From contig JAFCMP010000521.1 in the NCBI GenBank assembly GCA_017506865.1, positions 310,001 through 374,000 of the forward strand: DNA of 64,000 bases, read 5' to 3'. The notes under the pieces were generated by a model. The model ran no database searches. It was not told the DNA's origin and saw only the letters and a program-made list of their open reading frames with translations. Positions 1 through 64,000 of the stretch are shown one piece after another; the first letter of the stretch is position 1; the number at the start of each line of letters is the position of its first letter. This DNA is from Tribonema minus (taxonomy: Eukaryota; Sar; Xanthophyceae; Tribonematales; Tribonemataceae). A program made the position numbers and the translations under genes.

Positions 1-1172
1 GCTGCTGCTGCCGCTGCTGCTGCCGCTGCCGCCGCTGCTGCTGCCGCGGCGCGCGCTGCCGCCGCCGTCGCCACGGTCATTCGAGCTCGCCGCCGCCGCC
101 GCCGTCGCCGCGGCGCGCATCGCGCGCGCGTGGCGCAGCAGCGGCCAGCAGAACGCTGTCGCGAAGGCTACGTGGCACGCCGTCTCGAGCACCCACATCG
201 GGACGAAGGCGGCGCTCGGAAACGTGTTGACGCACGCGAGCGCGGCGACGCGGCGGCGGAACGCCGCGGCGTCTGCATGAAGAGCGACGGCGTGAGCGCG
301 AGGGGCACGGCGCACAGCGCGAGCAGCGCTGCGCACGCGGCGCGCCAGCGCGGCCAGCGCGGGTTGAGCACGTTCGCCGCGTCCGCGCGCAGCAGCAGGT
401 GGAGGAACGCGAGGCCCGTACTCAGGTTGCGGAGGACGCCCCAGGCCTGTCGGGGGGGGGGGGGGGGGGGGGGGGGGGCAGGGGAGTGATTGCGCGAAGG
501 CGGTGCGGTCTCAGACTAGACTCAGCGGGAGGTCTGGCGGCACTTGACAAGCGTCGGCAGACGTGCGGGTGGTGTATAGCCGCATTTGGGGGTTGCCGCG
601 CTGGGTGCGGCGGAACTTGCGCGCGCAGCGTAGAGGGCCCCGCAGCTCGTGCATTGCGGGTATCGCTGCGGCTGACCTCGCGCGCCAAGGGGGCGCAGAC
701 GCGCGCACCGACAATCAGCGCGCCGCGACAGCGGTTTGCGTATGCGCCGCCGCAAAAGTGACTCTGAGTGCGGAGCGCGCCGCCGCACCGCAAGGCAATA
801 ATCGCCTGCTCACTGGCGTAGACAAGGTGATTGCGCGCGAAGAGGGGTCGAAGATGCGGTCTACCGGGAAGTAAGCGATTCACTCACGCTCTCACTGTCG
901 CAGTAACTCAATGACTCACCATGGCTGATCGTGCTCAAAGATGCGGTTCTGCCGGGAAGTGAGCGAGCCACTCAATCACACACTCACCCACTCACTCAAC
1001 GACTCACATAGCTGATCTTGCACACGGAGGGGTCGAAGATGCGGCCCGCCAGGAAGTACGAGATCTCCCAGACCGAGCTGATGACCGTCAGCAGCGCCGC
1101 GACCGCCGCCGTCGCCATGAGCGGCGTGCGCTTCCCATAGATGAAGATGCGCTCCGCAAAGAAGAAGAGCGC
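1..1172 (-). CDS. Multi-span membrane protein, partial, with an apparent frameshift
   Basis: Two exons are visible: 1008-1172 (acceptor CAG before 1172, donor GTGAGT after 1008, phase 0) and 446 down to the window edge, whose acceptor follows a run of about 27 C on the sense strand. The joined reading gives several hydrophobic segments (MATAAVAALLTVISSVWEI, LSTGLAFLHLLL, AACAALLALCAVPLAL, AFVPMWVLETACHVAFATAF), so it is an integral membrane protein. I do not recognise the family. Near 255-275 the frame with strong GC3 bias changes by one base; a lost G in a CAGGAC context would explain it, by mutation or assembly error. The 3' end lies outside the window and the 5' exons were not found. After the first exon the intron carries two decayed copies of that exon's donor edge (about 847-885 and 933-965). 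Confidence 0.6.
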
Positions 1173-2596
1173 CTGCGCGTGCAACGGCGGAGACGCACGG
1201 CGTGGCGGTTCAAGGTTGAGATTGGGAGGACGTGTCAGTGCGCGCAGTGGCGCAGGCGTTGGGGTTTAGCATCAGCCTGAGGGCTGGAGCTTTGTCCGCA
1301 AAAGCGCGAGGGAGCGGTGGCGGCGTCGCATGCATTGGCTCTGAGTGGCGGCGCGGGGGAGCGTGTGTCGAGCGCTGCTGGGGACTCCTGACCCGTGCTG
1401 TCACGCGCGCCCGTGCTACTGCGCACCGTAGTTGACCCCAATCAGTGATTTCGTTTTTTTACTGCAGCAGCCACTGTCCGCAGAGCCCAGCCAGATTTCA
1501 CGATACAGGGTCTGAAGGCAGAAAGTGCTAAAAAAGAGGTATGCCGTCCCTCGAGAGAGTGGTTTCACTGGTACAATACAGCATGCAGCGACGCTAGAGC
1601 TGACTTTCAAGATAGGTAATTCGACGGCATAGGTGACACCGTGCACTTCCAATGGTGAGGAATTGGCCTTGCTGCGCTGAAGCAACTGAACAGCCGGTGG
1701 TCCATAGCTGATCACTGAGCAGCGACTGCTACTTTGTGCCAACCTACTGTGCCACCCCCTTCAAGTGGCATGTTTCTGTTTTTAATATGATGCGCCTTTA
1801 TATTTGCACGAGCGTGCTTCATTCATGGCTGCGGCGACGCATGCATGCACTCACTTCTTTTGCAGTGGGTGGTCACACGCAAGTGAGCACGTCACACCAG
1901 GGAAAGGGAAAAGCAATGGCACACCGAAGAAGCAGAAGTTGTGATAGACAATTTGTGGCACTTGCCTGGGCCGCAAACAGCAGTGTGATGGTCGTGGTGA
2001 ACACGCCGGCATTGACAGAGACCTTGACGATGACATTGCTGGGACAGGAGGCAGAGCAAGCCATCACACAATGAAAGCAAGCCATCACAAAATCAGTCAA
2101 TCCCGTCAAGTTCAACAGCGAGGTGCGGTCGCAGATGCATGCACAATGCACTCATGATTCGTACACGGCCCGCGTCAAAACTTCACTGTGATGGTGCAAT
2201 GCGAGCGCACAGTCACAACTGTGTCCGCAATGGCGAAAAACATTCGGTCTGTCGTCTCCGCGATTTCGTGATCCCAAACGCAGAATTTAAGCAGCGCTGG
2301 TGCCCGTGCGCGTCAAAGCTGCGCCAGGCTGCAGCAGCTGCTGGTCTCAATGCATTTATTGCTGACCAGCACATTCAGGCGCACGAGGCAGCAACGCTGC
2401 CCGCTGCAACGTCAATACAGAGTGATGCAGTCGCTGAATTATGTACCTTTCACAGGGTGGGGGTGTGGCCATGTCGCCTGTGTCTCATCCTCAGGCACTA
2501 GGCCTCTGCAGCCGCTCCCAAAGCTCGTCCAGCCACACGCAGCCTTCAGATCGCAGCTGTAAGTAAGTCCGCTTGCAGGGGTGATTTCGGTTCTGT
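1173..2596. other. Stretch without a recognised gene
   Basis: This holds the 5' part of the membrane-protein locus and the left flank of the inverted-repeat element. Several short open frames exist on both strands, but none shows clear codon bias, a recognisable domain and matching splice sites. A possible donor (GTGAGT on the minus strand near 1855) could belong to an upstream exon of the membrane-protein gene, but nothing confirms it. Confidence 0.4.
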
Positions 2597-3230
2597 CAGA
2601 GAGAGAAAGAGAAGTGGCACACATTTATTTCACTCCTTTAAGGCAATTTTCACCAGCCAAAACTGGCAATTTTGGGGATTTTCTGCCTCACATGTTGGGT
2701 CTCCAACACGAAAGCGAACAACATCTAAGAACAAGAAGGCCTCAGTGGCATAGGTCACAACGCTGCTTTTATACCATCATTGACTTCTCTGCCACCCACC
2801 AGATTATGTGACAATGGTAGGAATGCAGCACTCACCTCATGGCAACTAATCAGTTCGCTTCAATGCACAATGCACGATGTACACAAGTGGCACTGTCGGC
2901 AGCGCTCCACATGGCGTACTCTGGCCGTGTCATGACACACATGGCAGAATCCAGGGGGGGGGGGCACATGGAGGAGGACGTAGGGGAGGACCCCGAGATG
3001 CCATTTGGCGGCGGCGGCGTTTGAGTGGTTGTCGTTGCGACACTTTCAGACTGTCATACGACATGTAGATTCCTTACAGCTAGATGCCAATTATCTGGGC
3101 TTTTTCGCGCCCTGAGCGAGAATTAATAAAAAGTACACAAGTGGCTGTTAAGCCACCACAGAACATGATGGTTGTGGTCAACCAGCACCATGTCACCATC
3201 AGCAGGCAGCGCATGTGGCATGTAAGGGCA
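2597..3230 (+). repeat. Left terminal inverted repeat
   Basis: It pairs with the reverse complement of 12400-12777. The best-conserved part is about 2597-2880. A roughly 250-bp stretch (about 2885-3130) is present here and absent from the right repeat, and the inner block at 3160-3215 then resumes the match. The outer match stops sharply near 2597. Confidence 0.75.
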
Positions 3231-3287
3231 AATGGACACAATGCACCCAATGAGTGCACACCTTTGGTGGCTTTAGTGCCACGTTGC

Positions 3288-3400: not shown

Positions 3401-3619
3401 GCGACACTGGCACCTGATAGGGTGTGGCATTGGCACCACAGTGAAGGCCACCACCTGGGCAGTTATAATATTGAATGCAGTTGATCGACAACATGTTCTA
3501 CATTGTCAGCAGCAAGCGCAGGCCTTCCCCCTCACTGCTGAGAGCACGTTGCCCCTACATCTCATGCATGCGCGTGCCAGACAATGTCATGTTGAGTCTC
3601 AGCACACTCAATTGCAGCA

Positions 3620-13333: not shown

Positions 13334-16300
13334 CTACAATCGCAGGTCGACGACCGCGACGGTGCTCGTGGAGAAGCACGCCGCGACGCGGTCCTCGCGG
13401 TGGTTCCACGCGACCTCGAAGATGTCGCCCTCGCCCTGGTACGACTTGACGAGCGCGCCGTCGGCAACGCGCCACACGTACAGGTGCCCCGCGAAACTGC
13501 CGCTCGCGAGGTACTCGCCGCTGCCAAGCGGGGGGTGGGAAGGCGGTGGGAGAGTGTCAGTGCTCGGGGTTCATCAAATGATTGACAAGCGCGCCGTCGG
13601 CGACGCGCCACACGTACAGGTGCCCCGCGAAACTGCCGCTCGCCAGGTACTCGCCGCTGCAATGTGGCGGCGAGGGCATGTCAGCGCTTGGGGTTCAGCT
13701 CAATCTTCTTGGCGAAACTACTCAAGGGCGACTTTGACTCTGGAGTAATGATTGAGTCAGCGACGCGCCATACGTACAGGTGCCCCGCGAAACTGCCGCT
13801 TGCAAGGTACTCGCCGCTGCAAAGCGCGGGCAGGGCGGTGAGGCGGTGGGGGAATGTCGGTGCTAAGACGTGGCGGATCGGAGGGTAATGTGAAGCTCAA
13901 GTCTTGAAGGCGTGCATACAGAACAATTCAAGAATGGAGAAGTATGAGCTGACATCAGTGCATCAAGGGTGACACGCCACGTGAGCCAAGTGTCAGAACA
14001 CACCGCCGCTGACACGAGGCGCCGCAGCAGAGCGGCGAACGGCAGCACTCCACGGCCGACCGCCCCGGTGACACCATCCTGAAAGCGCAAGGGGGCGCTG
14101 GCGCTGGCAGCAGCGTGCAATGGATTGCAAACGCGCCCTTGCAAAGCAGCAGCGGACAGAATCCGCGTCTGACTGACCCTGTGACGTCCTGCAACAGGCA
14201 CAGCTTGACCTACTCCGCTGCACGTTGTTTTTCGGCAGAGTATCGCATACACGAGTATTCAACAGCTACAGGGCTATAGGGCTCCGCAACATTTGTTTTG
14301 CTGCACGTTGTACCAGCGGTCCGAAGCGCGCATCACAACTGACCGCTTAAAATGCCAACCGCGCACGACAGGACCTCCCAGCGCACTTGTGCAGCGGAGA
14401 AGCAGAGCAGTCCACGACTGACCAACCCGGACAGAGAGGCACAGCCCGCTGGCGCTGCGGCACAACCTCCACTGCTGCTGCGCACTGTCTTCTGGCAGAG
14501 TGTCGCATACATCAACTTTCAACAGTGAGAGGGCTGCGCGCGCTCTGCTGACCTGGGGCTGAACGCGACGCTGTACACAGGATCTTCGTGCCGCGTCAGC
14601 GTCGATACGACGCTCCCCGCCTCCACGTCCCACAGCTGTGCAGCGACACGGAGCATTCAGAAAAGGGTCAGAGGAGCAGCGCATGTACGCTTGTGGCACT
14701 CGCGGTGCGCCGCACGGCTGCGGAGAGCACCGCGCTGCCACGCAGCGAGTTTGCGTCGGAGCCCTGAAAATGGTATGATGATATGTGTATACAAACGGCA
14801 AACATGAGCAGAAAAGAAGCACATGAAGGTTGCAGCGCTGTGCAAGCCAGTGCAAGTGCCTTGAACTGTTGTACACATGCAGGGACGCAGGCACAGAGGC
14901 GTGCGGCCTGCAAAAGCACAGCGGCCGTGCCGTCACGGCTGCTGAAAAGCATGCCAGCGAAGTCGCCATAGCAGTGCATACTGTATGACTGCACGGCCAA
15001 TGCTGCAGGTTCAAATTTCATTACTGCCGGCCTGCGCCGCTGCTGCTCTCGCTTGTAGTGAGATGGCATACATCAGATCATACAGGTTGTTGGTCGTGAG
15101 AAGGTAGCAGTGAGGTTGTGGCCGTGCATCTCTGTAAGGGACGTGTGCGAGTTTCACCAGCACGTGATGCCATCACAGTCCGAGCACCGGTTCGCCGCAT
15201 TGCCCATGCGCGCACAATTACACACACTTCTGAGTGTACAAGCCCTAATATATGCACTTCAGAGAATATGCGCTATTGTGATACGCACCTTGACGGTGGC
15301 GTCGAAGCTCGCCGACGCCAGCAGCATGCGCTTGCCCGCCACCGGGCTCCATTTGATGGTGTAGATCTGAACGGCGGCGGCGACACAGAAAGCAAGTTTG
15401 AGCATATGAGTCGGGCATCAGCAACTTGCGGGCGGTGGCATTCCGGATCTCAATGTGCTGCTAAAACACATGCGCCCGCCGCTGATGTCCAGTTTGGCAA
15501 TCGCATTTTTCTGGTCAGTGTGCTGCCAGAAATACGGGTTTCCTCTGCTAAGCCGAGGGGAACGGCGCGACGGCATGCGTCCGCGGACGGCTGGTGAAGG
15601 TGCAACGGCGACGACTGCCCCACCTTGTTTGCGCTGCGCAGGGTCTGCAAGTAATCACCGCCCTCATGCCTCCACTCTGAGATCAGCGCACGGCTGTCAG
15701 GCACTCTAGCGTGAACATTTCAGAGGTTTCGGAACGCCGTGACTAGCCCAGGGGTTGCGTGACCCCCGGAATTTGCAATAAGCGTTCCGCGTGCTCCTGC
15801 GCTGAGCATCGCTGTCGCGCACTGAAGTGCAAAAACGGCTCACCTCTTTTGTATGCTCCCGCAGGTCGTGCACGCACTTGGCGCTGTTGGGCTTCCATAT
15901 CTTGGCCGTGTAGTCGTCGCTGCACGAGGCCAGCAGGCGCCCTGTGGGGTCCCACTTGATGGCGTTCACCTGATCGAGGGGGGGGGGGGCACAGCAGCAG
16001 CGGCGGACGCGGGTAACGTAAATACTGAGGCAGGACTAGGATGGCGAAATGCGCCTGCAAACTTCGATTCGATATAGCGTTCACCTGATCAGAGGGGGGC
16101 GGGGTGACAGCGGCAGCGGTGAACGCGGGCAATGTAAATGGTGGTGCAGGCACCAGGATGATGAAATGTGGATGCGGGTGATGAAAATGCAGAGGCAGGA
16201 CTACGGCGATGAAATGCGCCTGCAAACTTCAATACGCGGCGTTCACCTGATCAAAGGGGGGTGGGGTGACAGCGGCAGCGGGTAGTGTGGATGGTCTCAG

Positions 16301-18822
16301 CGCTCAAGCAAGACCAGAATGGCGAGTTACGCCAGCAAACTTCAACTTTGTTTCACTGACGCAGCAGTTGATGCGGACGATGTAAATACTGAGGCAGGAC
16401 CGGGACAGCGCAATGTGCCTGCAAACTACCATCCGAAACTTCACGGTATGACCGCGGTGACACTCCCACAAATCGGGCGCGTGAGTAGCACTGATGTTGA
16501 TGAGTGATACATCACGGCCTGTGTACTTTAGACAACACCATACCGATGGACGCGCAGCGGTCAGCAGCCAGCCACGATGAAAGTAGCATCATTGAGTGAA
16601 CTGCTGGCTGTGCACTGAGCGGACTGAGTTGCACTGAGCGGACTGAGTTGGGCCACAAAATCAGCAGCAAAGATGATTCAACTCCGCCGCAGTTGATTGT
16701 GTCTACAAGCAAGCCGGTTGGCGAGCCTTTGAGCCGGTCGGCGTATGGTGGTGTGAAAGCGAATACACATGCGCATGGTATCTGATGACCAGCGTCCGAT
16801 TACAGCCACCAATGGTCACAGATGCCGCACTTTGGGCTGTATGTGATTTGATTCCATGCATGACCATTGCTCACCTCGTCCGTGTGTCCGGTGAACGTCT
16901 GCTTTGGGAACGCTTCGCCGACGGCGAGTATATTAATCGCCTGCAGGGGCACCACAACAGACGACGACACTGTCAGACTGTAGGCTTGGAGATCCGACGG
17001 ATGCTCAGCAGCGGCTGTTGCGATCCGAACGCCGCAAATCGCTGGTGTTCATCCAATGCAGCAGTGCAGACCGCCCAGTACTGCTCCTGCGCAAGTCATC
17101 TGCGCACGCCCATGCAAGGGTGCGCAACGCAGCGCTGTCAGCATACAGTGAGGGTCACGCCGCAGTGTTCGCAAGGCTGGCTCGCCTCGTTGACCGAACG
17201 CGTTGCGCGCGCCTGCATTGTCTTAATGGTTCACGTAGAGCGTGGCGGCGAAGCTATGCACGCAATGTCGACGCACGCTGACCACGTGAAACGCAACCGC
17301 CATCGCCGAGATTGGCGAACGTCGGACGAGGTGCGCTGACGAATACAAATGCATACGCACGAATCATCTCTACATCAAGAAGCGTGTGCGCGTCGCCTGC
17401 GGCGCTGCGTCGGCAGTCTCGCCTTGAATCAAGTTGAATGTGCAGCAACGAGACTGCCCTTACCAATATTCTGGACCATCAGATGCGGTAACGCACATGC
17501 TACGCGTCGACACATCAAGCAGCATATGCGCACTGCCTGCGACATCGCGTTGGTGGCCTTGCCTTGTCGGTGGAGCACGTCGCGAAGGTGACGTTGTCCT
17601 TCCAGTCGACGTCGAGCGTGGGCGCCTCGTGGAACTCAAAACGCTGCTGCACGCGCCCCGCGGCGACGTCCCAGACGATGGCGCTCTTGTCGGAGCTGCC
17701 GCTCAGCACGTAGTTGCCCGCGTTGTTCCACTTGAGGCTGAAGATGGGGCCCTCGTGCGCCTGCGACGGACGGCACGGCGCGCCATAAACGAGGGTGACA
17801 TGTGAGCGATGACTTCTCAACAGACCTCAGAGGCGCGCAGCTGGCGTCAAAAAGCAGCCAAACTTCAAGTTCAAGATCAGGGCCTCGTGCGGTGCGTCGT
17901 CGACGGCACGGTGAGGCATCGGCGAGGGCAGCGGCACATGAGCCATGGCACATGGAGAGGCCTGCAGGGCCCACGGCCGATGTCAGAAAGCAGCTGAACT
18001 TCAAGTTCAAGATCAGGCCCTCGCACGGTGCGCCGTCGACGAGGGCAACGACACCTGAGCCATCGAGAGGCCTCGCAAGGCACGGCTGGTATGAAATAAC
18101 GGCTGACCTCGACAAGCAAGACAGATAGTGTGCCGCTCTGAACTCCAAATTGCCCTCGTGCGCCTGCGACGAGCGCCGTCAATTGGGGCAGCGACGAGTG
18201 GGCAACGACTTCCCTACGGGTGAGGCGCACGGCTGGGTGAGGAGGCTGCTAAACTCGACAAGCAAGACTATACCATGCCATTCTGAGCTTTCATTGAAGG
18301 CGGGGCCCTGCAGTGGCGCAGTACGGACGGCACGCCGCGGGCTAGAGGGCGGAAAGGGCGATTGACATGAGTATCAGAGCGCTTCTGTCCGCACCAGCAT
18401 CCACTACGAGCGCATGTCTGGGCCACGCCCGGGTCGCCTCGCGATAAATGATTGCGGCAGTTTCTTAATGCCTGCCATACGCAAGCGATGGAGCTGGCGA
18501 CACAGCGGACGCACGCGCGCCGCCATAGCACCTGGCATACTCGCTCGGCCAATGAGCGCTGACGCAGTCGATCCGTGCCAGGTGTCAGCGCTGCGGTCAC
18601 TGCAGCTGCGCGTGGCTCGCGGCTACGGCTGTGCGCGCCCGCAAGCTGCCACCAGACGCCGGCCCAGTTTGCGCGTGAGGCCAGCAGCGCAGCGCTGACG
18701 CTGGTAATGGCAGCAGCGGCGCCTGAGATAAGCAGCCCTCAGAGCGCCGCGGCGGCGGCTGCGCGCAGCAGCAGCGGTCGCCGAGAGCGCAGGCTGTCCA
18801 CGAGCATTGTCCTTGTCCGCAA

Positions 18823-18867
<45 letters not shown>

Positions 18868-41800: not shown

Positions 41801-44582
41801 TGCGACTCTTGACTCTCTGCCAACGCCAACGGCGCCGCTCATCCGCTGACCTTTGCGATGCTGGAGGCGCCAATGTCGGGCGGCACGAATTTGCGCATGA
41901 GCGCCAGCGCCTGCTGGTTGGCGGCCAGATTGTCCGCCTCCCACTGCTTGGCGCGCTCCTCCTGCTCCTTGGCGTAGTCGGGGTGCATGCGGATCGTCTT
42001 GTCCCAGCGGTCAATGTCCTGCACGGCGGTGTGACGAACGGAGGACGATTGGTGAGGGTTTGTACCTGCACCCTAACCCCTGACCCTGACCCTAGCTGAA
42101 ACGCTGACCCTAACCCTGACCGTACCCGACCCTGACCCTAACCCTAATTGTAGGGTGCAACCCTAACTCCAACCCTAACACTTACCCTAACGCTAGCCCG
42201 TGTTCAGGCGCGCGCCGCATCGTCTTGTCCCAGCGGTCTGTATCCTGTTCGTCATGTGATGTAGCGTGTTGCGAGCAAGACTCCTTGCGCGCAAGCTTTG
42301 TGTTGTGCGTGTGCTGCGCGCCTGCATGGCGACTACATGGCCATGTGCCGCCACGTGAACGTCTTATGTACGGCCGACAAGAGTCTCGCCGCAATGCGCA
42401 TAATGACCAAACGGTGATTTTGAAAATCCATCTCAAACCCTGGCTTATGACCAGGTGCACTTCAACTTGGAGTATGATTCAAGTAGAGGTCACTACTCAC
42501 CGCCGCCAGTCATAAGACCTCCCAATGATTGAACTGCCAACGCTGTTTTTTGTGGTGCTGTTCATCACAATGAGCTTGCAAAGAGTGCGGCGGCTGACAC
42601 CAGATGCGAGTTGGCTGAACACGCTACGCAGCATTGTTTGAGTGTTCTTGAGGGAAGTCAAAAGCTTCATCCGTGTATCTTGAATCATGTACTTCGAAGT
42701 ATATCATGAATCATGTCAAGCCTGAAAAGCACTGCAGCACACAAATGTACACTTCTACAGGCCCAGTCATCAGCTTGGTCGCAACTTTCACTGCATGTCG
42801 TGCAAAAGGGTTTGAGCTCCTTTGTGAGGGTTACCAACTGGGGCGAGCTGCATCATATCTCTCCACGACCAGCTTGGTATGGCTGCAAGAATAATAGTGT
42901 GACATAGCTGTGCAGCAGCTGTGTTGAGAGGGTTAGCGTTAGGGTTAAAGTGACGTTGGCAGCCTTGACGCTGCTGCGCTCGCATCTCAGAGGATGTTGC
43001 AAGCGCTAGAGCTGGGGGAACGGCTCAGTATGGCTGCAGAAAGGACGTTATGACATGGCTGCACCGCTGCTGTGTCGCAACGCTTCACCTTGGGGTCGGG
43101 TCAGCAGCATCCACTACGCTGGGCTCACATTCCAGAGAATATTACAAGTGTTATAGCTAGGGGGGAAGGGCGGTGATCTGAGGGTAGTGCGTGGGTCACA
43201 GCCAGGGTTTGAGGTAGGGCTGGGGGCGTCAACTTCTGCGCGCTGCCGTTCTCCGAGCGTATCGCAAGGGTAACGGCAAGGGGTATAGGGGCACAGGGGG
43301 GTAAGTTAGGGTGGGAGCGTCACCTTCTCGGCGCTCTCGTCGCCCGCCATTAGCTTGGTGACGGCCTGCTGCATGCGCTCCTTGGCGGTCTCGAGGCTGA
43401 CGAACTCGAGCGCGACCTGGCCCGTGGACGCCAGCTGCTTCTTCAGCAGCGCTATCTGGTTGTACAGGTTGGCGGTGGCGGAGTCGGGCTCCTCCTGCCG
43501 TCGCGAGAATTGGGATTAGGGGCGGGATCAGGTGGTGCGCCACTTTTAAGTTTGTATGGACAGAATAACCGCACATTGTCTGACAATGATGGCATCTTTT
43601 GCCATTGTGTGCGCCCAGGTGTTGTCAATGCAACGCATCTTGGCGCCTGTACGTGCGTTGCATCGAAACCCCCTGCACGCACAATTGCAAGGGTGAGGGT
43701 CATGGCTGGGGTTGGGTTCAGCTGCTGCTGACGTTGCAGAAGTGAGGTGCCGCAGGGCGCGGGGAAGGATAAACCGACTGCACACTGTCGAAGATAGTTG
43801 TAACTTTGCTCCCTGTTTCAACGAAGCCAAGCCAACTGCTGCCCTTCGTCGGCGAGCCATCCGAAGATTCCAGCGTGTTTGCAAACGTGACGTATGCACA
43901 GCGCGCAACTACGAGTTTCTTTGCGCCCTGCCTGAACTCCTTATAGTAGTGGTTCCGTTGCCATCATTCATCAGGATTCATTCATCATTGAATCATCATC
44001 AATCACAAGTTCATGCGTGAACTGACCTTGTCTTTGGGCGCCATGACCTGCCTGAACTCCTTGTAGTGGTCCTCGCAGAAGCGGATCGTCACGCCGTGCG
44101 TCGCAGGCCGGCCGCAGCTCTTGATGGCGCATTCGCGGTTGCCGCCGCCGCCTCCGATGCCGCGCCAGTGCTGCGCCTCCTGCTTCTTCTGTCGCGCGGC
44201 GCAGCGCAGCGCACACAAGGGGGTAAGGGGGGGGGAGCGCAGCGCGCTCTCAGCAGAGCATTCATCAGATGGCCTGCTTCGTTGTAAGCATCACCACGAC
44301 GCCTAATTTTCTTCAGCCATTATAAACATATTTCTTCAATGCGGGATGTGACAGATGCCACGTTAGTGCTGGCCCGGCATGCCCACCGATGACGCCGTAA
44401 CCAAAAAGCACAACAGCAACTGCACCGCCAAGACGAGCACTGCCGCGGCGGCCTCACCTTGCGCTTCGCGCGCGGCGGCCCCCCCGCCGCCGCCGCCAGC
44501 ACCCCCGCACCCGGCGCCACGCGCGGCGGCGGCGGCGCCAGCCGCAGCGACGACCCGGAGCGCGTCAGCGCTCTGCCGCCGC

Positions 44583-44613
<31 letters not shown>

Positions 44614-47600
44614 GCGGCGCGACGGCGACAGCGCGGAGCGCTTGCGCGTGAGCGACGAGCCACTGCCCTGTGATACAGAGCTGTCGCGGCGGGCAAGCGC
44701 TGCCGTGGGCGATGAGCACTGAGGGGCGTCCGTGTTGAAGTTGCACTCGGCGGCGGTGAGGGGGGGCGGCGAGCCTGCGCCGCCGTTCGCCGCCGCCGCT
44801 GCTGCTGTCGTCGGAGACGCCGGCGCAGTAGCGGCGCACGGCGAGAGCGCCGCCGCGGCGCTGCTGCTGCTTGCGGTTGCGGGCTGCGGCGTCAGGCACG
44901 CGCACAGACATTGGTTCAGAGTGGGAGTGGTGGTGTGACAGGGGCATGGTAGCCGAGACAGCGACGCTGTGCGCGGTGCTGTGGCCATGAGGGAAGGCAC
45001 AGAAAAGCGGCTCTACTTGGGCTGATCTGCTGCAGAATTGCTCAGCAGGGGCCGACGCGGAACGCAAGCAAGTACCGCGCGCAACGAGCGGTCCACGCTG
45101 CAAATGGCTTGCGGCTACCGCCATGTGCTACCGGCATGTGGCCTCGTCTGAAGAACTTGAAGCCTCAGCACGGCGTAGCGGCCGGTCCGCACGATGCGCA
45201 AACGGCGTGCGTACCTGTGCAATTCTGCGCCATTTTTACAATGGAAACGAATCAGAAGATCGTAGAGCTCTAAGTAGGTGACGACGTGTGGTTGGCCGTT
45301 AAATTGAATGCCTTCCACCATCATAGTACACTTTGTGAATGGTTGACATGTGACCCAGGATCAGCCAGCTGGGAAATGCAGTGCTTTAATCAGGCTCACC
45401 GCATAATCTGCGTCGTCGAGGTCATCGATGGGCTTGGGCGCGTGGCGGCGCATGACGCGACAGCTGTTGTGCACAAACGCGCTGCACAGCGAGCAGTAGC
45501 TGGAGGGGCACTGCGGGCACCAGATGGCCACGCGGCGCGCGCCCTCGCACTCCAGGCACGGCTCCTCGTCGTCGCCGCTGGTGTCTTCCTCGGAGCCTGC
45601 GCCGCAACACGCCGCCGTCATGGTAAATTGCGTCAGTGCTCGATGTGTGCACGGCGCCCTCTGATTGCGCCTGTGCAGGGGGCATGATGCTTGTGACCAC
45701 ACTGTCAAGTGTCAATTGCGCACTCCAGGCATGGTTCCTCGGCGTCGCCGCTGATGTCGTCCTCCGACCTGCACCGGAACGTGTTGCCGTCACGTCACAT
45801 CGTGTTCGTGCTCAATGTGTGGAAGGCGCCGGCCGATCAGAGCAGGTGGCGCCCCCATTCAAGCGGGTGTCCACGAGCCCCTGGAGTAGACGCACCCGCA
45901 CGTGCATACATTGCACCAGTCTCTTTCTGCAGTATCTATTCATCTACAAAATGAAATCTACAATACCTACATACCTGTGGCCATGCCCGCCGCCCCCATG
46001 CGGTCGGGGTCCATGAGGCGCTGAAACGGACGAACGAACGCACCCGCACGTGCATACATGCACCAGTCTTTTGCTGCAGTACCTATTCATTGATAAACGT
46101 GCAGAATGCAATATCTACGTACCTGTGGCCATGCCTGTTGCCCCCATGCGGTCAGGGTCCATGAGGCGCTGGAACGGGCGCACCGCCGTGCCGCCCTCGA
46201 GCCACTTCTCAAATGCTGCGAAGAGCTTGACGCGCTGCCAGCGGAAGATGCACGCCGTTACGGTGCTCGCCGCCGCCGTCGCGCGCAGCTCGCGCACCGT
46301 CTTCTTCATCTCCATGTCCGCCTGCTCATTCATGCAATTCAAGGTGTTCATGAATGAATCCACTGATGTGGTGCCGCGCAGGCAGTGTCTGTAATGGTGC
46401 TCGCCGCCGCCGTCGCGCGCAGCTCGCGCACGGTTTTCTTCATCTCCATGTCTGCCTGCTCATTCATTCAGTTCAAGGCATTCATGGATGAATGAATTGA
46501 ACAAGTGGTGCGGCACGAGATCTGTGACAGTGCTAGCTGCCGCCGTCGCGCGCAGCTCGCGCACCGTCTTCTTCATCTCCATGTCCGCCTGCTCATTCGT
46601 CCAATTCCAGGCATTCACGGGTGAATTCATGAATGCAGGAATTGAGTATGTGGTGCCGCACAGGAGCTGTGACGGTGCTCGCCGCCGCCGTCACGCGCAG
46701 CTTGCACACCTCTTCATCTCCATGTCCGCCTGCTCATTCAAGTCAAGGCATTCATGAATGAATAGATTCAACATATGCGATGCCGTGCAGTATCTGTGAC
46801 AGTGCTCGCCGCCGCCGTCGCGCGCAGCCCACGCACCGTCTTCTTCATCTCCATGTCCGCCTGCTCATTCATGCATGCCTTGCCCTGCTCATTCATTCAA
46901 CGCAAGGCACGCATGAATGAATGAGTGAGTAAATGATCCAAATAACTTGCGGTATCTGTGACAGTGCTCACCGCCGCCATTACGCGCGCAGCCCGCGCAC
47001 CATCGCCTTCATTACCATGTCCGCCTGCTCACTCATTTAATTCAAGGAATCTATGAATGAATTCACAGATGAATGATTTTGGTATGTTGCCACGCGGTAT
47101 CTGTGACAGTGCTCGCCGCCGCTGTCGCGCACTGTCTTCTTCATCTCCATGTCCGCCTGCTCAATCATTCAACTGAAGGCATTCATGAATGAATGAATTG
47201 AATATGTGTGATGCCGCACGGTATCTTTGACAATGCTCGCCGCAGCATCACGCGCAGCTCGCGCACCGTCTGCTTCATCTATGTCCGCCTGCTCATTCAG
47301 TGGATTCAAAGCTTGATCGAGTGAATGAATGAACGAACTTGTGACGCCTGCAACACTGTGCGCCGCCGCTGTCGCACGCAGGTCGCGCACCAGCTTCGTC
47401 AGTCTCCATGCCCGGTGCATGGGCACATTAAAACCACAAGTATGTACTGAGATAGGCATGAATGAGTATGTGGCAGTGCCTGAAGTCTGTCCAAGCGTGT
47501 GCCACATCTCACGTGGCGGCCTTTTTCATCTCCATGCCCGGCTGTCTTATCCCTGACTGAATGATCGGATATGTGGTGGTATTTGTGATGATGCACGCCA

Positions 47601-50600
47601 CCTGAACACCTCTTTCAACATGTTGCGCTGCTTTCCCTCTACCATCTGCAAAACTGCTACAGGTCCTCTTTCCTCGTCTCGGTCGCACCACCTTGACTTG
47701 CGGGCTCCTCACACCCTCCAGCGCCAAGGACTTCAACTTCAATGCCACGTATAACAACATCTTCAACTGACGACGCATGCACTTTTTCCCGCTTCTTGGC
47801 CTCCTTGCCCTCCCCTGCCACTTCGCCTCCTCGCACCCTCCAGCGCCAACCACTTCAACTTGAAAAATAAAATATTTGACTGTGTACGCACCTTGATCGT
47901 GCGCACTTTCTCCCGCTTCTTGGCCTCCTTAGCCTCCCTGGCCTCCTTCGCCTCTGCACTGGGGCTCCGCACGCCCTCTAGCGCGAACGCCAGCACTGCC
48001 CCCCCCGCCGCCCCCCCCACCCCCCGCGTCATCGCTCCGCCGCTTTCGACCCCCGCCAGAGGGGAACTGGGGGGGAGGGGGGCGGCGGCGGCGGCGGCGG
48101 GGGCGGGGACGGTGGCCAGCGCTGCCGAGGGGGTGCTCGCTGCGTTCTCCCCCTGTTCATGAAGCAGGAGAGTGGCGCGTGCAGGCAGGAAGGTTACATC
48201 GAAACATGCACAGGACTTGACTGCGCTGGACGGAGGTGTTGCGCTGCCGCCGCTGCCTCACGGGCAATGGAGACACCGTGCGTCCTGAGAATGCAGGCAC
48301 ACTTGATTTGGAGTGGGCTGAGTCGAAGTTGAGAAACCGCAACGATGTTGGCCCGACTCTCACGTTCAGTAAAACTCTGTCTGTTCCACCCTCTAGGCAA
48401 AACCGTCATGTCTGCGCCTGTGCTGACCGACAACTGCGTTATTCTAATCGACTTGTGTTCTATGCCAATGCTGGCGCTTGTGCACCTGACAACCTCAGAG
48501 AGACCACTGCACTGGTCACGCTGTCCTTGGCGAGGTTGCTGCCGCTGTGGAGCGTCACCCGTGCCGCAACGTTCAGTTGCCAACAGATCCACCACATCAG
48601 CACCCGACATCCATTCACCACAGACACAGGGCACCACAATCATGTCCGCTGGGTCATCTCCTGCGCCGTCACTTGACCACAAACACAGCGCACCAAAGAC
48701 TCCGCGTCTCCACTTCAACAGTCACTTCACCTTCTGCGCCGTCGCGCTGCCGTCCCCATCACCCTCAGCAGCGCTCAGCTGTCGTGGAGTGTCACCCACC
48801 GCGCCCGGCTGCCACTGTGCCCCGCCCGTGAGCGCCGCGAAGAGGTTGGTGTTGCTGCGCCGCAGCGGTGACGTAAGTGGCGGGCTGGAGCTGGTAGCGG
48901 CGCCGCTGCCGCCACCGCCGCCGCCGCCGCGCAGCAGATCGAGGCTGCTGTCGGAGCGCTCAAGGCGCTTGAGCATCTCCACCTCCCTCTCCTCCGCCTG
49001 GAGGCGTCACATGACGGCACCAATGTTCAACAGTGCATTTGTGGCATTGCCCAAAGTATGACAACACAGCTACGGATATTTCTGGATGATCTATGTTGAG
49101 CAGCGGGGCAACTGGCGGGCTCGTGGCGGCGCCGCCGCCGCCGCCACCGCGCAGCAGATCAAGGCTGCATGGAATTGTGTGCATGTACTTGAAGTGCGTA
49201 CGTCAATGTACGAGACCACGGTCGGAGCAGCGCCCGCATGGGACAGACGCTCCACGCACCTGTTTGGCAGTGGTGTCCTGCGCGTCCTGCTGTGGCATTG
49301 CAATTTATTGACATGTACAGCAGCAGTCGCAGCAGCAGCGCCTGCACATAGGAGACTTGGCGCACCGTCCTAGCGGAGTCCTGGGCGTCCTGCCGTATGC
49401 TTGGTGTGTTTATGCCTGTACTTCAAGCGCGGTATATGTATATTCTCGTTGAATCCTAGGCGTCCTGCTGTATACTTGGTGTGTATGTATGTACCTGATT
49501 TATTCTCGCTTAAAGCGCGATACTTCAAGCGTGTGCATATATGTACTCGGCGCACCTTTCTGGCGGAGTCCTGGGCGTCCTGCTGTATGCGGCGCGCGCC
49601 AGCGACGAGCGCCACCTCCTGCTGGAACATGCGCACCGCCAGCACCGCGAGTATCGCGACGCGCCACCTGCGCGCGCGCACGAGGGCACGAGCACCCAGG
49701 GTCAGTGCTCAGTTCCTCGCAAGTGCCACAGTGTGCGCTGCCGCACATGCGCACGACCACGTCATTGCAGTACCGTACGCAAACTCTCAGGACAAATCAT
49801 CTCGCGCCGCTGCTGCGCGGCCCGCTATGGCTCCGCCACAGTCGCACTCTCCCCTACATGCACACCCCAAGCGCAGTCCTTTCAGTTCGGAGGCGGCAGC
49901 ACTCACTTTCTGCGCAGCCCCCGCCGCCGCGACGCGTCGTCGCGCCCCACCGCGGCGGCGCGCCACAGCGCCGCGAGGCGCCGCCGCGTGAGCGTGCGCA
50001 GCGCGCGCCGCCGCCCGCGCGCCGCCGCCAGCAGGCAGATGAGCGCTGTGCGCGCGCGCGCCGCGGCGAGGCCTGTGCGCGCGAGCGACTTCACATGTTG
50101 AGTCGTGCTTCGATTTGAAACTCAGGAGTGAAGGGCTTTCCTGCTAGTTTAAGTAGAGCTCAGTATCTTTTGCAGATTTCTCCTGGAAGCACTGGTTGAA
50201 ACCAGGCATTTCTTGGGTGCATCTTTGCAGCGAGGCCTGCGCGCGTGAGCGACTTCACGCGTTGAGTCGCACTTCAAGTGGAAGTATGCGTCGACAGCAG
50301 CTCTATTGTTGGGTGTTTCGGCGGCTGTGATGTGCTGAAGCAAGCCGTGCCACGTCCGTTTCATAGGCGGAATGATTACGCAGTCAGAGTCGCAGTGTCC
50401 TGCGGTGCTGAGAAGCCCTGTGAGCGCTGCCCCACCCCGACCGTCAATGATGCGCTGACACAATGTAGCATTGCGTGTCACGTACCCGGGTGTAGCCTCT
50501 TCTACAGAAACAGACAGCGAAGCCCTGCGCGGAGCGCCACCCCCTCCCTCCGACACCAATGTACTCACCGAGATGCAGGGGTCCTCCTCAGCCCTGGGAG

Positions 50601-53600
50601 GTACTTAGGGTTAGGGTTACGCCCTTCCGTCACCGCTCACCGCGAGTGTAGCCTACAGTAGCCTCCTGTGTCGCAAGACAGTCCTGCGCGATTCGCCACA
50701 CCCTAAACCGACAGCAGTTCACTCACCCAGTCGCAGGGTCCTCCACACGGCCCACCGCGACACGCCCGCGAGCGCGTGCGCGCGCTGCGCAGGCCCCGCT
50801 GCCGTCAGCCTGCGATGCGCAGCGGACGCGGGCGCGGTGGCGTCGGCAGCAGTATGCGCTCGTGCAGTGCAGAGACGCGGACGTACTGCAAGCGCAGGTG
50901 ACTGTTCGGGTTACGGTGGTTTAGGTTAGGGCAAGGGGCGGGGTTAGGGTTAGGCCCGCCGCGGCGGGGGGGGGGGGGGGGAGGGGGGGGTCAAGAGCCA
51001 TATTTGCCAAGGCAAGCGTGCTGCTCCTGCCCAGCTGTGGCCATCTAACAGCGGCCGGGGGGAGCGAGCACCTGCGCCACTGGGGTCGGGTTTGGGGCAG
51101 GGTTTCTACTCCGTGCTGCCTTTCAGGTTGTGTCAGACTTTCTGGTGGTGCAAAAAGGCACATCTGCTCATCAGTGCTAGTGTATGGCGCGGTGCGTCGC
51201 CGCATGCGCTGATGCGGTTGAGGTTGAGGTGGGCGTGCAGAGCGTTGCTGCGTCATAGGATGACACTCAGCAGCAGAGAGTGCTGCCGCACCTGCAATGC
51301 CACGCGCGCAGGAGAGAAGTTAACCGCTATGTATATGTGCCATGTACTCGCCCGACCACCTAGGGAAATGAGATCTCATGTGCACGCTCACCCACACCAG
51401 TAAGACAGAAACTACTGCCACACTTGGTATGTAACACGTATGCGCCCAACCAGCCTAAAAAAGATGTTCATGGCGCATGGTCACCTGAGTAGGCGCAGCA
51501 GCGGAGCGCTGCCGCCTTGTATGAAGAGCCATACTTCGAAATACACTACAAACACACATCTAATGAAGATGAAACAGTTGTGAGTGGGTGTGCACACCTG
51601 AGCAGGCGCAGCCGGAGCGCTGCCGCCCCGTACCAAGAGCCATACTTTCAAGTACTTCAAGAAGTATGCATCAAGTACGTACCCAACCAACATGAAGGTG
51701 TTCATGCGCATTGTTACCTGAGCAGGCGCAGCAGCGGAGCGCTGCTGCCCCTTATGAAGAGCCATACTTCGAAATACATTACGAATGCATACCTGATGAA
51801 GATGAAACAGTTGTTGGTGAGTGTGTACACCTGAGGAGGCGCAGCAGCGGAGCGCTGGCGCCTCGTCGTATGAAGAGCCGTACTTCGAAATAAATTACGA
51901 ATACATACTCGATGAAGATGAAACATTTTTTTTTGTGGGTGCGGTCACCTGAGGAGGCGCAGCAGCGGAGCGCTGCCGCCCCGTACAAAGAGGCGCGTCT
52001 CGCCCCACGCCACGTCCGCGGGCGGCACGTCCAGCGCCCACAGCACCGCCTGCAAGCAAAAGTGGGCAAGCGGATTGGATTGGTGATTGATTGACAATGG
52101 GCTTCGCAGTACGCAACACAGCACCGCCTGCGGGCGGGCAAGTGGACCGCATCGGTGACCGACGATGGGCTTTGCACTACGCGAAGCGAGTGGGCAAGTG
52201 GATCGGTGCGGCCGCCGATGACTGACGTTGCACTGCACGACAAGCAGTGCCTGTCAGACTGTGCCAGTGCTCAATACGTATGCCTCATGTAACTGCAGCG
52301 CTCAGCCTTGTGGCGCCCAGCGTCCACAGCACCGCCTGCGGGGAGAAGCAGGCAAAAGGACTGAATCGGGCACCGACGATGGGCTTTGCAGTACGCGGCG
52401 CGAGTGGGCAAGCAGATCAAATCAATTGCTGACGACAGATTGTGCAGTGCACGACCAGCTGTGCCTGTGTCGGTGCTGTATACGGTATGCATTCTCATGT
52501 GACCGCAGAGCTCAGCCTTCCAGCGTCAAAAGTATCCAAGCCGATCGAGTCAACTGTATTGGAACTCGCGCTGCTCATACAGAAGTCAAGCATAGCAGAA
52601 GGAAGCCCCATCAAGTTGCGTAACGCGCCGCAGCCGCTGTGCGTGCTCAAAGACCGCGGACGGCACAGCGTGCTTCCAGCACCGTAGGAGGCACTTGCGC
52701 AGAGTACAAAGTTTTGCAAAGGGATGACAGTACCTGAAGCGGCTATGCAACCGAGCTGCCGCTTGCCGCGCGGTGACTTTATTCTGAAGAGGCGGTGGAG
52801 GTGCTATCAAGCGAGACATATGGAGCGCGCGCACCGGCAAGGCACTGCAGAGCATACTCGTATAGAGTACAAAGGTTCCGCAACAGGACACTGGCACCCG
52901 CAGTAGTTGCGCACATGACCTCCTGGAGTTGCTTCATGCTCGAAATAAAGCAAGGCCTGCGGCATCAGGCGCGGCGTGCACAGCGCGCACGGCGGCAGCC
53001 GCGGCCGGCACAGTGCCGCAGAGTGCGCTTGCGTACAGCACAAAGGTTCTGCTATGCCACACCGACACCTGAGGAAGTAGTGCGTTATAGATTGTAGACG
53101 TACTTCAAGTTTGAAGTACGCTCATAGTTTGGTCATACCTGCACCATGAGACACGGCGTGCGCAGCGCGCGCAGCCGCCGCGCCCACGGCGGCAGCCGTG
53201 ACTGTGCTGTAGAGTGCGCTTGCGTACAGTACAGTGTTTCTGCAATGCGGCACCGACGCCTGAGGATGTAGTGCACTGTAAGGTGTTCCGTCATACCTGA
53301 ACCATGAGGCGCGGCGTGCGCAGCGCGCGCAGCCGCCGCGCCCACGGCGGCAGCCTCGGCCGGTACAGCGCATCCAGCTCAGCGTACGCAACGTGCGTCG
53401 CCGCGCCGACGTGCATCGTCTGGCACAGCGGTATGAGGTCGAGCCCCCTGCGCGGCCAGGCGGGCGCGGGGGGGGGGGGGGGGGGGGGGGGGCGGTGGCG
53501 TTGGGGTGAGGGCTAGGTCTAGGATTCGGCTAGGTGCGTGTGGCTGAGGTTTGAAGTGAAGGCCACACCATGTGCGTGGTGGCAGTGACGCGCCCTCTGC

Positions 53601-54953: not shown

Positions 54954-54997
<44 letters not shown>

Positions 54998-55967
54998 GTC
55001 GCCGCCGCCGCCGCCGTCGCGCCGCAGCACGCCCGCGCGCGAGCTGCCCTGCAGCAGCTCCGCGACCTCGCGCGGCGCGCGGCCGTCGCTGCGCCAGCGC
55101 GCCTGAGCGTTGGCGTCGCGCAGGCCGCGCGCGTCGTACTCCACGACGCCCGCGTAGTGGCGCACGGCGAAGCGCGCCGCCGCACCCGGCGCCGACGGGT
55201 GCTCGCACTCCGGCAGGTACAGCGTTTCCGTGCGGTGCGCCTAGGGGGTGTATGTGTGTGGGGGGGGGGGGGCGAGGGGAGGGCGGGGTGGCGGGGGGTA
55301 GTTGATGGTGAGTGCTGCGCGCGTGTTGCTGTGCGCTGCTGTGCCTTGCTGCGCGGCTGCGTGCAGTGTGCGAGCGCTCGAGGGAGCAACGTGAATGTTG
55401 GGTGGGTGTTGAGTGGTGGGCGCAGGGGGTGCTTGCACTTCGGCAGGTACCGCGTCTCCGTGCAGTGCGCCTGCGGCGGCGGCGGGGTTTGAGACGTCAA
55501 GGGAGATAGAATCATAAACACGTTGCGCGGGGGGCAGCAATAGTTGCATCGAGCTGGTGAGCATGTACGAGGCTTTGCACGATCGACGCAGGGGAGCCGT
55601 GCAGCCGCCGTAATCGAGCGCGCTGCGCGACAGAGGAGTGCCGGCCTGCTGTTGCGCGTGCCATGGTGTGCGCAGGCAATACGTGAGCGAAATCCGTAAG
55701 CACAAAGCTCGTGATGCATCCTGCGCAGCGACTGAGCACTGCACCCATGTAGGTAGGTATGCCTGGCGGCGCGGCCAGGGTCAGACTCGGGCGACGCATC
55801 AGCACTTCGTTTACTCTCGCTGCACCATGAGCTCGCCGGCTACAAGTGCGTTCTTGCCACCATGCTTATGCCCACTGTGCTCTACTGCCTCACCCTGTAG
55901 AGGGCCGCTGCAAAAGCGGCGCCAGAATCCTCGCCGGCATCGCCGCCGCTGCTGCCGCCGCCGCTGC

Positions 55968-55999
<32 letters not shown>

Positions 56000-59687: not shown

Positions 59688-59718
<31 letters not shown>

Positions 59719-60841: not shown

Positions 60842-63800
60842 ATGAGCAATCCTTACGGCTCTCCTGCGTCGCACGATGGGCCCTCCCACCCTGCTCCACG
60901 TGCGAGAACTGCTTTGTCTCTGGACCTGGGGTCGGATTCAGAACCTGAGGATCTCACCAACAGTGCTGATGCCGGAGGCGGCGAGGCGCGATTGTCACTA
61001 AACATCGCCAGACGTCGGTCCGGAACCTTGCCCGCTCGCCACAACAGCAGCGAAACATGGCAGCCACACAGCAGGGACGATGGCAACGGCGGTTGTGAAG
61101 GAGACGAGGAGCACTACGACGACAGCTATCTAGATGACAACGTCGGCCATGACGGCAATAATGGCCACCACCGGCAGCAGACACAGCCTCAGGGCCACCC
61201 CTACGCAAACACAGTCAATCCCTACTCAGGTCGCCTGGTGAACACGGCCAGCATCTTCAAGACACCTCCGGAGGGAAGGCAGCCCCACGGCCATGACGAC
61301 ATCTCCCCTGCTGTCAACAAGACCGCCAGGGGCTTCGCTGCCAACGGCCCTCAGAACTCGCGAGCTGCCTTTCACACTCAGCAAGAGGACATTGAGGAGT
61401 GGGAAGAGCCTGAAGATGCACATATGGCGGAGGCACTGGCGTCTGGGTACCAGCACCACAACTACCAGCAGCGGCAGCAGCAGCAGCAGCAGCAGCCGCA
61501 GCAGCAACAGTGGCAGCAGCAGCAGCAGCAGCCGCCGGCTTGGCAGCAGCAGGACACCCAGCAGACGGGCCCGCGCGGCGAGCGCCTTGTGAGTGTCGCC
61601 GACGCCTTCCCGCCCGCCATCGCGCGGCTCTGGCAGTTCGAGCACTTCAACGCCATGCAGAGCGCCGTCCTCGCCGCCGCGGCCGGCAGCGACGAGAACC
61701 TGGTCATCTCCGCGCCGACCGGCTGCGGCAAGACGGTCGTCTTCGAGATGGCCATCGCGCGCCTGCTTCAGCAGCAGCAAGAGCAGCAGCAGGCGGGCGG
61801 TCGCGGCGGCGGCGGCGGCCACCGCCTCGGCAATCAGCGCGTCATCTACATTGCGCCGCTCAAGGCGCTGTGCCAGCAGACGCTCGACCAGTGGACAGCA
61901 AAATTCGCGCCGCTGGGGCTGCGGCTGGCGGAGGTGACGGGCGACTCGGCGGGCCCGATAGGCGCCGCCGCGCTGCGCGACATCGCCGCCGCCGACATCA
62001 TCCTCACGACGCCGGAGAAGTGGGACAGCGCGACGCGCATGTCGCACGAGCGCGCGTTCCTCATCGGCTCCGTGCGGCTGCTGCTGGTGGACGAGGTGCA
62101 CATGCTCAGCGAGGACGGGCGCGGCGCGACGCTGGAGATGATCATCACGCGCATGAAGGTGCGAGTGGAGTCGCGCACACGAAATCGCCGCCTGCACCCG
62201 AATGCAATCACAGTATTGATGAGGCCGGCATGCGCGTGTCATCGCCAGTGAGGGCAGACGCGCTTGAGCGATGGGCATCGTCGCCATGCGCCTGAGCACG
62301 GGTGCCCATGTACACGAGCTCACCTCACGCCAGTCGCATAACCGCACTCTGCAACTTACCCTCCCCCCCCCTCCCCCCCCCCCCCCCCCCCCCCCCCACT
62401 GCTTCCGCAGGCGCTGCGCAGCCTGCCGCACATCCGCGGCGCCAACCTGCCCGCGGCGCGCATGCGCATGGTCGCGCTGTCCGCGACGCTGCCGAACGTC
62501 GCCGACATCGCGGCGTTCTTCGAGGCGCCGCGCCCCTTCGCGTTCCCGGACGCATACCGCCCGGTGCCGCTCACCGTGCACGTGGACGGGTTCGCGGGGG
62601 GGGGCGCGCAGGGGGGCAACGCGTTCCTGTTCGACCGCGCGCTGACGCGGCACGTCGCGGGGGTGGTGCGGCGCTTCTCGGGGGGCATGCCCGCGCTGGT
62701 GTTCTGCGGCAGCCGGCGCGACGCGGAGGGCGTCGCGAAGGCGGTGGCGGAGGCGCGCGACTGGAGCGCGGACATGGGCCGCAGCGGCAAGGTATGTAGG
62801 TAGCGCACCTGCAAAGCGGTTCAGTGGTGTCTTGGTGTTTGGCATATTTCGCGGTGTGCTTTATAACACTTCGTGGCACCTTACGCGAAGGCGGCAGCGG
62901 AGGCGCGCGACTGGAGCGCGGACGTGGGCCGCAGCGGCAAGGTATGTTGGTAGCGTACCTGCGGAGCGAATGCGTTTGTCTTGTCACTTGGCGTGTCCAG
63001 GGCGTGCTTTGCAGCACTTGATGGCAGCTTATGCGAAGGCGGTGGCGGAGGCGTGCGATTGCAGCGGTGACGTGGGCTGCAGGGGCACGGTAGCGTACTT
63101 TGCATGGATCGATTCTCGCTGAAGGCACGAAGAGGCCTGGATGAATCATGTCGAGCTTGCTGCACAGAATGTGCATGTACATACTGTCAAACTGTCTTGA
63201 TGCGAATCGACGATCACTTTTAAACGACATCACCAATTGAGGTGTACCTGCTCCGACATGGATGTGTTCGTCGCTCGACGTATTGAGGCGTGCCTTGCAG
63301 AACTTCACGATTCATTATGATTCACGAAAAGTGTTATAACGAAGCAACTTCAATGTACTTCAACTACTTCAAAAGATGCAGGTTGGAGCTGAACGTGCAA
63401 AAGTGTGCAACAGGAACTTCCTGATTAAACCGCAGTCTTGGGCCAGGGGACCAAAATGAGCTTCACGTTCGTGAGATGTACTTGCACAGTTTAAGGCACA
63501 TAAAGTACCGTGCACAGTGCAATGATTCCACTGACTTTACATGAAATGTTGGCACAGCAGCACATGATGTAATTGATGCCCTGCTCCGCTTGTCCACCAT
63601 ATTGACATCCGATGCGGGTTGTGAAGTCGTATGCCATTGGCGCTATGGCAGACAATGCCTATGGACGCGATGTGAACTGCAGGAAAAGTGAGGGGCTAAA
63701 GCCACATGCTAGCATTTCAGCCAATTTGTGGCTTGCCGTGCAATGCCGTTTGATGTTCATACATGCGCTCACATAGTGAGCGTCAACCAATAAAAGCCAA

Positions 63801-64000
63801 TGAGCTGTAACCATCAGTCTCGCAATGGCAAGTGATATTGGGTGTAAAGTTGTCACCAAATACCATAACATTCCTGCGTACATAAGGTTATGGTGCCTTC
63901 ATTCTTCCAAAAATGACTTGCGATGTACCTGCAGGACGTCTATCACACACCATCTTCTTCCGTGTCGTCACGGTTCTGAGCTCTGTCAGCTTCTGAGCGG
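60842..64000 (+). CDS. HFM1: HFM1/MER3-type DExH helicase, 5' part
   Basis: Exon 1 (60842-62158, ATG start, donor ATGAAG|GTGCGA) and exon 2 (62411-62791, donor AAG|GTATGT) join in phase 0 and give 566 residues; later exons lie beyond 64000. A 240-residue acidic, Gln-rich leader precedes the Ski2-like core: a Q-type motif FEHFNAMQSAVL, Walker A APTGCGKT (291-298), YIAPLKALCQQ, TTPEKWDS, DEVH (417-420), MVALSATLPNVADIAAFF and ALVFCGSRRDAEGVAKA. The spacing TPEKWD, DEVH, SATLPN and the order match HFM1/MER3, which unwinds recombination intermediates to promote meiotic crossovers; ASCC3 and Brr2 are relatives but have a second helicase cassette and different surroundings. Exon 2's acceptor follows a run of about 25 C. 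Two donor-edge copies follow exon 2. Confidence 0.85.
62880..63095. repeat. Two copies of the HFM1-type exon-2 donor edge
   Basis: The end of exon 2, GCGAAGGCGGTGGCGGAGGC, then GGAGCGCGGACATGGGCCGC, recurs at 62885-62953 with the GGTATGT donor intact. It recurs again, more degraded, at 63034-63092 with GGGCACGGTAGCG in place of the donor. Confidence 0.9.
63096..64000. other. Intron remainder to the window edge
   Basis: No exon of the helicase gene or other gene was recognised here. AT content is higher than in the exons. CAACTTCAATGTACTTCAAC at 63345-63364 is one of many ACTTCAA-type motifs in the window. Confidence 0.4.

Follow-up and report, generated by a model that had tools for sequence, protein, structure and literature searches.

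Many exon-intron junctions in this genome are accompanied by decayed copies of themselves lying within the adjoining intron, and we consider their probable cause to be local tandem duplication that is frequent, mostly untargeted and subsequently filtered by selection. The window, the whole stretch of 64,000 nucleotides analysed here, corresponds to C518:310001-374000 of a 158-Mb assembly. Pooled with conserved genes elsewhere in the assembly, it yields 64 junction copies at 31 of 165 exon edges (93 in the window, 70 fixed by protein profiles and two kinesin donors that were added since copies were already known there; without these two, 29 of 163).

Exon edges were set independently of the gene models of an earlier note on this DNA. 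Whole-genome Pfam profile searches gave exon-by-exon matches to the actin, chaperonin and kinesin families, of which only the best candidates were scored, and 37 introns were placed to the base by splice signals, reading frame and profile continuity; 35 were kept, and two (one on C97 and one at C279 354-441) were left out for poor fit. The donors of these profile-anchored introns are AG/GTRNGT-like and the acceptors GCAG/G-like (slash, splice site), and the genes have a coding GC3 of 84% and an intron GC of 56%. The exons of the window are predictions of a small gene finder trained on the profile-anchored genes: 47 exons with a score of at least 30 provided the 93 edges, with exons below 30 and single-exon predictions left out. 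Minus-strand genes of the window were not separated by the gene finder, and gene number was estimated by reading. The predicted exons include those of a WD40 gene, a TerC gene, a protein kinase, a myosin and an SLH1/ASCC3-like helicase; no tRNA and no Rfam match at the gathering score was found in the window.

Under a looser criterion, in which a copy covers 12 exon and 3 intron bases, an intron-side copy is present at 18 of the 93 window edges and an exon-side copy at one. The latter, at 7012, and the intron-side case at 6926 are both parts of a duplication of about 1 kb at 5.6-7.4 kb. When 6 intron bases are required, 17 edges carry copies including 6926, or 16 of 93 without it; edge 42018 passes the looser criterion only, and the edges at 15969, 50072 and 55240 fall short by 1-2 bases though arrays overlap them. 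With 16 + 1 + 3 = 20 window edges, in about seven genes by reading, the earlier note's figure of at least 20 boundaries with edge copies is borne out (Table 1). The kinase profile runs continuously across the inferred splice of the protein-kinase exon listed there. At the largest array, the acceptor had been predicted at 46362 and was corrected to 46321 after the array was read.

Table 1. Arrays and single copies at predicted exon edges of the window, in order of position.
Feature	Position in window	Strand
Donor-edge copies after exon 1008-1172	842..1064	-
Acceptor-edge array, two copies, upstream of WD40-gene exon 13382-13520	13446..13864	-
Array upstream of WD40-gene exon 15844-15969; one base short of the looser criterion	15959..16436	-
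Acceptor edge of WD40-gene exon 17563-17760 copied upstream; AG lost in one of two copies	17730..18171	-
Array in which the donor edge of protein-kinase exon 31374-31578 is copied four times in the intron, with GT or GC	30628..31421	-
Donor-edge copy after exon 37338-37440	37184..37359	-
Donor-edge array after exon 38257-38495	37794..38284	-
Acceptor-edge array upstream of exon 38257-38495 (copies at both ends of this exon)	38432..38819	-
Acceptor-edge copy upstream of exon 40056-40208	40135..40414	-
Weak copy (32 bp) of the acceptor edge of exon 41851-42018, lying upstream; looser criterion only	41990..42247	-
Acceptor-edge copy upstream of exon 45400-45596	45546..45830	-
Largest array (unit of about 134 bp); acceptor edge of exon 46184-46321 copied seven times upstream	46254..47414	-
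Donor-edge copy after exon 47837-48152	47705..47954	-
Donor-edge copies after exon 49556-49667	49255..49590	-
Acceptor-side copy at exon 49907-50072; two bases short of the criterion	50063..50283	-
Donor-edge array after exon 51949-52049, four copies, GT in all; genome match at its own place only	51427..51992	-
Acceptor-edge copy upstream of exon 51949-52049	52028..52519	-
Donor-edge copy after exon 53297-53447, beside myosin exons	52963..53371	-
Acceptor-edge copy upstream of exon 54926-55240; AG kept; one base short of the looser criterion	55197..55472	-
Donor-edge array, unit of about 150 bp, after SLH1/ASCC3-like helicase exon 62411-62791; more copies downstream in the intron	62734..63092	+

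Several other features of the window were recorded. Its most similar duplication is a 304-bp tandem duplication at 39365-39975, 99.3% identical with a 3-bp overlap at the joint, which sits between the predicted exons 39140-39223 and 40056-40208. The region at 5570-7406 holds two units about 1 kb apart, in pieces 82-96% identical, and has few strong exon predictions. Degenerate telomere-like repeats (AGGGTT / CCTGACCCTAAC) occur among predicted exons at 38546-38761 and 42065-42147, and an open reading frame at 3596-4285 (+) matches the telomere-resolvase catalytic profile PF16684 weakly, with a score below the cut-off.

The same kind of copy occurs in conserved genes outside the window, at junctions fixed by protein profiles. 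Under the stricter criterion, copies cross the junction at 12 of 70 such edges. Scored by coverage, edges with copies number 10 of 70 under a stricter rule and 14 of 70 under a laxer one, and by the stricter rule repeats also cover 235 of 1000 intron-interior and 38 of 628 exon-interior points. Profile pieces that overlap by at least 12 positions form 22 pairs, of which eight represent seven partial copies at six boundaries (actin C538; CCT C5, C51 (twice) and C135; kinesin C246 and C511), all of which share the outer exon edge within 2 residues; the other 14 pairs have no common edge and are taken as profile matches extending past splice sites. One chaperonin intron, on C5, repeats the exon end together with its donor seven times.

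Separate observations on these families concern the chaperonin locus L054 (C279), where the exon end reads AAG/GCGAGT, a string that recurs in downstream copies and resembles a putative GC donor; L013, where the actin-family match is preceded by CCCTAACCC-type repeats; and L017/L018 (C80, at about 96 kb and 82 kb), where an actin-family region occurs as two oppositely oriented copies with 98.6% identity over 2.26 kb.

Direct repeats adjacent to each other or closely spaced inside a gene, the arrangement by which internal duplication is recognised, are present in excess over controls. The window contains 45 direct HSPs, every one within 3 kb, versus 7 inverted ones. At score 40 there are 74 direct repeats (duplicates removed) versus 10 on the reversed sequence (duplicates kept), and the margin is smaller at the laxest setting, with 93 direct repeats versus 45 reversed and 38 inverted. 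Merged actin, chaperonin and kinesin segments give 90 local direct repeats versus 4. The size of the excess over chance varies with the threshold. Repeats in an unselected 40-kb sample cover 13 of 38 predicted edges, very unevenly: its 10-kb pieces, all with predicted exons, hold 62 (L069), 43 (L070), 0 (L068) and 2 HSPs (L071). This gene-to-gene heterogeneity is conspicuous by eye, yet it is not significant in the profile set (p=0.19).

The distance from an edge to its nearest copy is 120-200 bp at 19 of 29 edges, and the spacings over all arrays peak in the same range (95 of 234). This is approximately the nucleosome repeat or the size of an Okazaki fragment, a correspondence that we treat as a lead only. 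Modulo 3, the nearest-copy distances fall into classes of 6, 12 and 11 (the 6 being multiples of 3), and the spacings over all arrays into classes of 85, 75 and 74. The proposal in the earlier note that the duplicates create alternative splice sites in frame was not upheld, since the frame-keeping spacing by which an array of alternative sites is recognised occurs at 6 of the 29 edges and 20 of the 64 copies carry a frameshift. Its further proposal, that the copies lengthen introns, agrees with a median of about 940 bp for introns with edge copies (n=10) versus 507 bp for those without (n=25; p=0.003), but this difference is partly true by definition. Stripping the recognisable extra copies, both at junctions and within introns, shortens the 35 profile-checked introns from 23,914 to 19,943 bp, so that extra copies make up about 17% of intron length in these genes. 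Introns probably lengthen at their ends, where near-identical, decaying copies accompany the true splice sites. Adjacent repeats at least 88% identical number only four in 256 kb, with overlaps of -9, 3, 5 and 1 bases, too few for a pattern of microhomology at the breakpoints; they document continuing activity only weakly, and most of the exact breakpoints have been lost.

The origin of the copies is local. Each of four arrays queried against the 158-Mb assembly, in a search that skips very common words, matched its own locus only, and the arrays carry exon sequence of their own gene. A dispersed element was considered and is ruled out for the four arrays queried by these own-locus-only matches. 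The duplicated state can be polarised in one pair of light-harvesting paralogues, L065 and L066, which are 90.5% identical over 770 bp. The same acceptor is represented by one CAG junction in L065 and by three in L066, 136 and 176 bp apart, and the two upstream junctions of L066 lie outside the exon. Over the first 40 exon bases, the L066 junctions match one another at 37 of 40 positions and L065 at 31-32 of 40. Since the L066 junctions are closer to each other than to L065, the duplication postdates the split of the paralogues, and on this sequence comparison the paralogue with a single junction represents the unduplicated and L066 the derived state. Locus-specific arrays and the derived state in this pair both favour the interpretation in the earlier note of the copies as local duplications of exon-intron junctions. 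Two light-harvesting proteins match solved structures, including fucoxanthin chlorophyll a/c proteins, distantly only, a result that points to an alga with a red plastid.

Once formed, the copies decay in a neutral-like manner. They are usually 70-95% identical; with gaps left out and before the acceptor correction, identity to the exon is 90.3% (3556/3936) in exon-derived sequence, and intron-derived sequence is 80.3% identical (8294/10333). Mismatches in the exon part amount to 6.6, 7.1 and 13.6% at codon positions 1, 2 and 3 (86/1310, 93/1305 and 176/1293), which is as expected if an unconstrained copy is compared with a constrained exon. The exon part is gap-free and open in 40 of the 64 copies; copies in one array share their history, and copy counts are not independent. 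Greater divergence with distance, previously noticed in several arrays, is seen at all seven edges with at least three copies, one of which has an uncorrected acceptor: the identity of the exon part drops with distance from the exon. This suggests that new copies arise beside the working junction. Splice dinucleotides are kept in 62 of 64 copies when the alignment must cross the junction and in 47 of 56 copies found via exon sequence alone, and dinucleotide bases are lost at 3 of 128 positions versus 34 of 384 at exon positions -6 to -1 (p about 0.01). The acceptor correction at the largest array turned seven copies from lost to kept and thereby changed the retention from 52/61 to 62/64. Selection on the copied splice sites was considered but is not claimed, since the criterion favoured intact sites and seeding with exon sequence alone erased most of the signal.

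The position of the copies relative to exons is informative to different degrees. Their one-sided placement, donor copies downstream and acceptor copies upstream, stands as described earlier but is trivial as evidence, because it is built into junction duplication: with the first of two duplicated donors still in use, the other can only fall downstream of it, and the extra copy of an acceptor can only fall upstream. Beyond the use of exon-proximal sites, one-sidedness thus shows nothing. The rule may be broken at two light-harvesting paralogues (C1:1236836-1237042 and C79:1261050-1261277), each with a second, start-aligned and stop-bearing profile piece downstream of the exon, which may be a separate gene, a pseudogene or an older duplication.

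An enrichment at exon ends shows in the array counts; it is not significant in the edge counts or against a null that takes intron lengths before duplication and a slower loss of exon-bearing copies into account. When edges are shifted at random, 20 of 34 arrays touch an edge versus 10.9 expected (p=0.0004), and 14 of 28 versus 9.3 in a second array set (p=0.017). The corresponding edge counts are 21 of 93 versus 15.8 (p=0.09) and 14 of 70 versus 10.6 (p=0.10). A rejection null gives 15/24 versus 5.0, 17/27 versus 8.3 and 10/20 versus 3.0 in three data sets; it excluded arrays inside exons or spanning whole exons (10, 8 and 2), makes large arrays hard to place and is less relied on than a placement null. 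The latter, using the intron lengths before duplication, expects 9.4 of 23 arrays on a junction versus 13 observed, and 11.2 (sd 2.3) if exon-bearing copies stay detectable 1.4-fold longer, as simulated. Duplication by a mechanism that acts preferentially at splice junctions, such as breaks at exon-intron boundaries linked to transcription or R-loops, would fit the array counts above the shift and rejection nulls and the 11 of 22 arrays that touch a predicted edge in the unselected 40-kb sample. However, the edge counts in the shift test are not significant, the placement null with its detection advantage comes close to the observed number, and 10 of the 23 intronic arrays touch no junction. 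We regard such a process as unlikely, and on this mixed evidence junction targeting is not needed to explain the placement.

Maintenance of the copied sites because they serve alternative splicing or act as regulatory decoys is less probable still. The retention of dinucleotides in junction-crossing alignments, their low loss relative to nearby exon positions and the share of gap-free, open exon parts could be read in its favour; against this, the retention among exon-seeded copies is about what one unconstrained branch would yield, frameshifts are common, the spacing is not in multiples of 3 and the codon-position pattern fits an unconstrained copy. We also see little room for an artefact of assembly or gene prediction. 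Window edges are predictions, one of which needed correction of its acceptor, but identities of 70-95% are too diverged for misassembly, and profile-anchored genes with independently set edges show the same copies. Introners, which have created introns in many eukaryotes (PMC9860276), or another dispersed transposon with splice sites at its ends, are the least credible source: near-identical units at many unrelated genes, the hallmark of introners, were not seen for the four arrays queried, and the arrays hold exon sequence of their own gene. A dispersed family, named in the earlier note as the finding that would speak against local duplication, is thus contradicted for these arrays.

Based on these findings, we propose that the copies result from local tandem duplication filtered by selection, in which (i) segments of some 70-300 bp would often be duplicated in tandem at their own locus, by a molecular route that might be slippage or a switch of template during replication or the repair of breaks; (ii) where a segment spans a junction, the exon-proximal site would stay in use and the protein would remain unchanged; (iii) the second copy, consisting of an exon edge, a splice site and an intron stub, would become intron and decay as unconstrained DNA; (iv) repeated rounds beside the exon would push older copies outward, generating arrays and a longer intron; and (v) duplications within exons or of whole exons would mostly be purged by selection, so that the survivors would look one-sided and junction-centred. 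The copies and their spacing, the local origin of the arrays queried, one derived case, the neutral-like decay and the outward divergence are observed, and to these we add by inference the continued use of the exon-proximal site, the role of selection and the molecular route. A stronger version, in which local duplication of approximately nucleosome- or Okazaki-sized segments is the dominant and continuing form of intron growth, recopying the working junction and leaving decayed copies at about one in 5-6 edges, with the spliceosome choosing the exon-proximal site among near-identical neighbours, is possible but rather doubtful. If true, it would reflect an unusual rate of replication- or repair-linked duplication.

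Duplications of this kind are marked by the exon sequence left behind in introns, which allows them to be dated and oriented, and the rate of intron growth as well as the choice among near-identical competing splice sites would become measurable in one genome. Gene prediction is at risk in such a genome from near-perfect decoy splice sites with coding-like flanks. To our knowledge, intron lengthening is far less documented than intron origin. No title among the literature matches listed, which are no proof of absence, describes pervasive junction copies in one genome. The type of mutation is known; its density and visible outcome are, we believe, the unusual part.

Tandem genomic or internal gene duplication has, as cited in PMC3443670 and PMC4974935, been treated by Rogers in 1989, Gao and Lynch in 2009 and Hellsten et al. 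in 2011. Intronic minisatellites are likewise tandem arrays of degenerate units; in contrast, the units here are about 70-300 bp long, the copies are few and each array is tied to a splice junction. Tandem duplication inside genes is a well-described source of new introns (PMC3443670, PMC4974935), and resembles the present case in being local, acting within genes and altering exon-intron structure. The example of the potato RdRp gene, where a single duplication of the upstream intron-exon structure gave a new intron, involves a duplicated segment of the same kind as the acceptor copies found here (PMC4974935). In these published cases, however, the duplication made a new intron, whereas the duplications described here lengthen introns that already existed, leave copies with no apparent use and affect numerous edges across many genes. 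Introners share with the arrays that both enlarge intron content genome-wide; they are dispersed and similar to one another (PMC9860276), whereas the queried arrays are each confined to one locus and contain the exon edge of their own gene.
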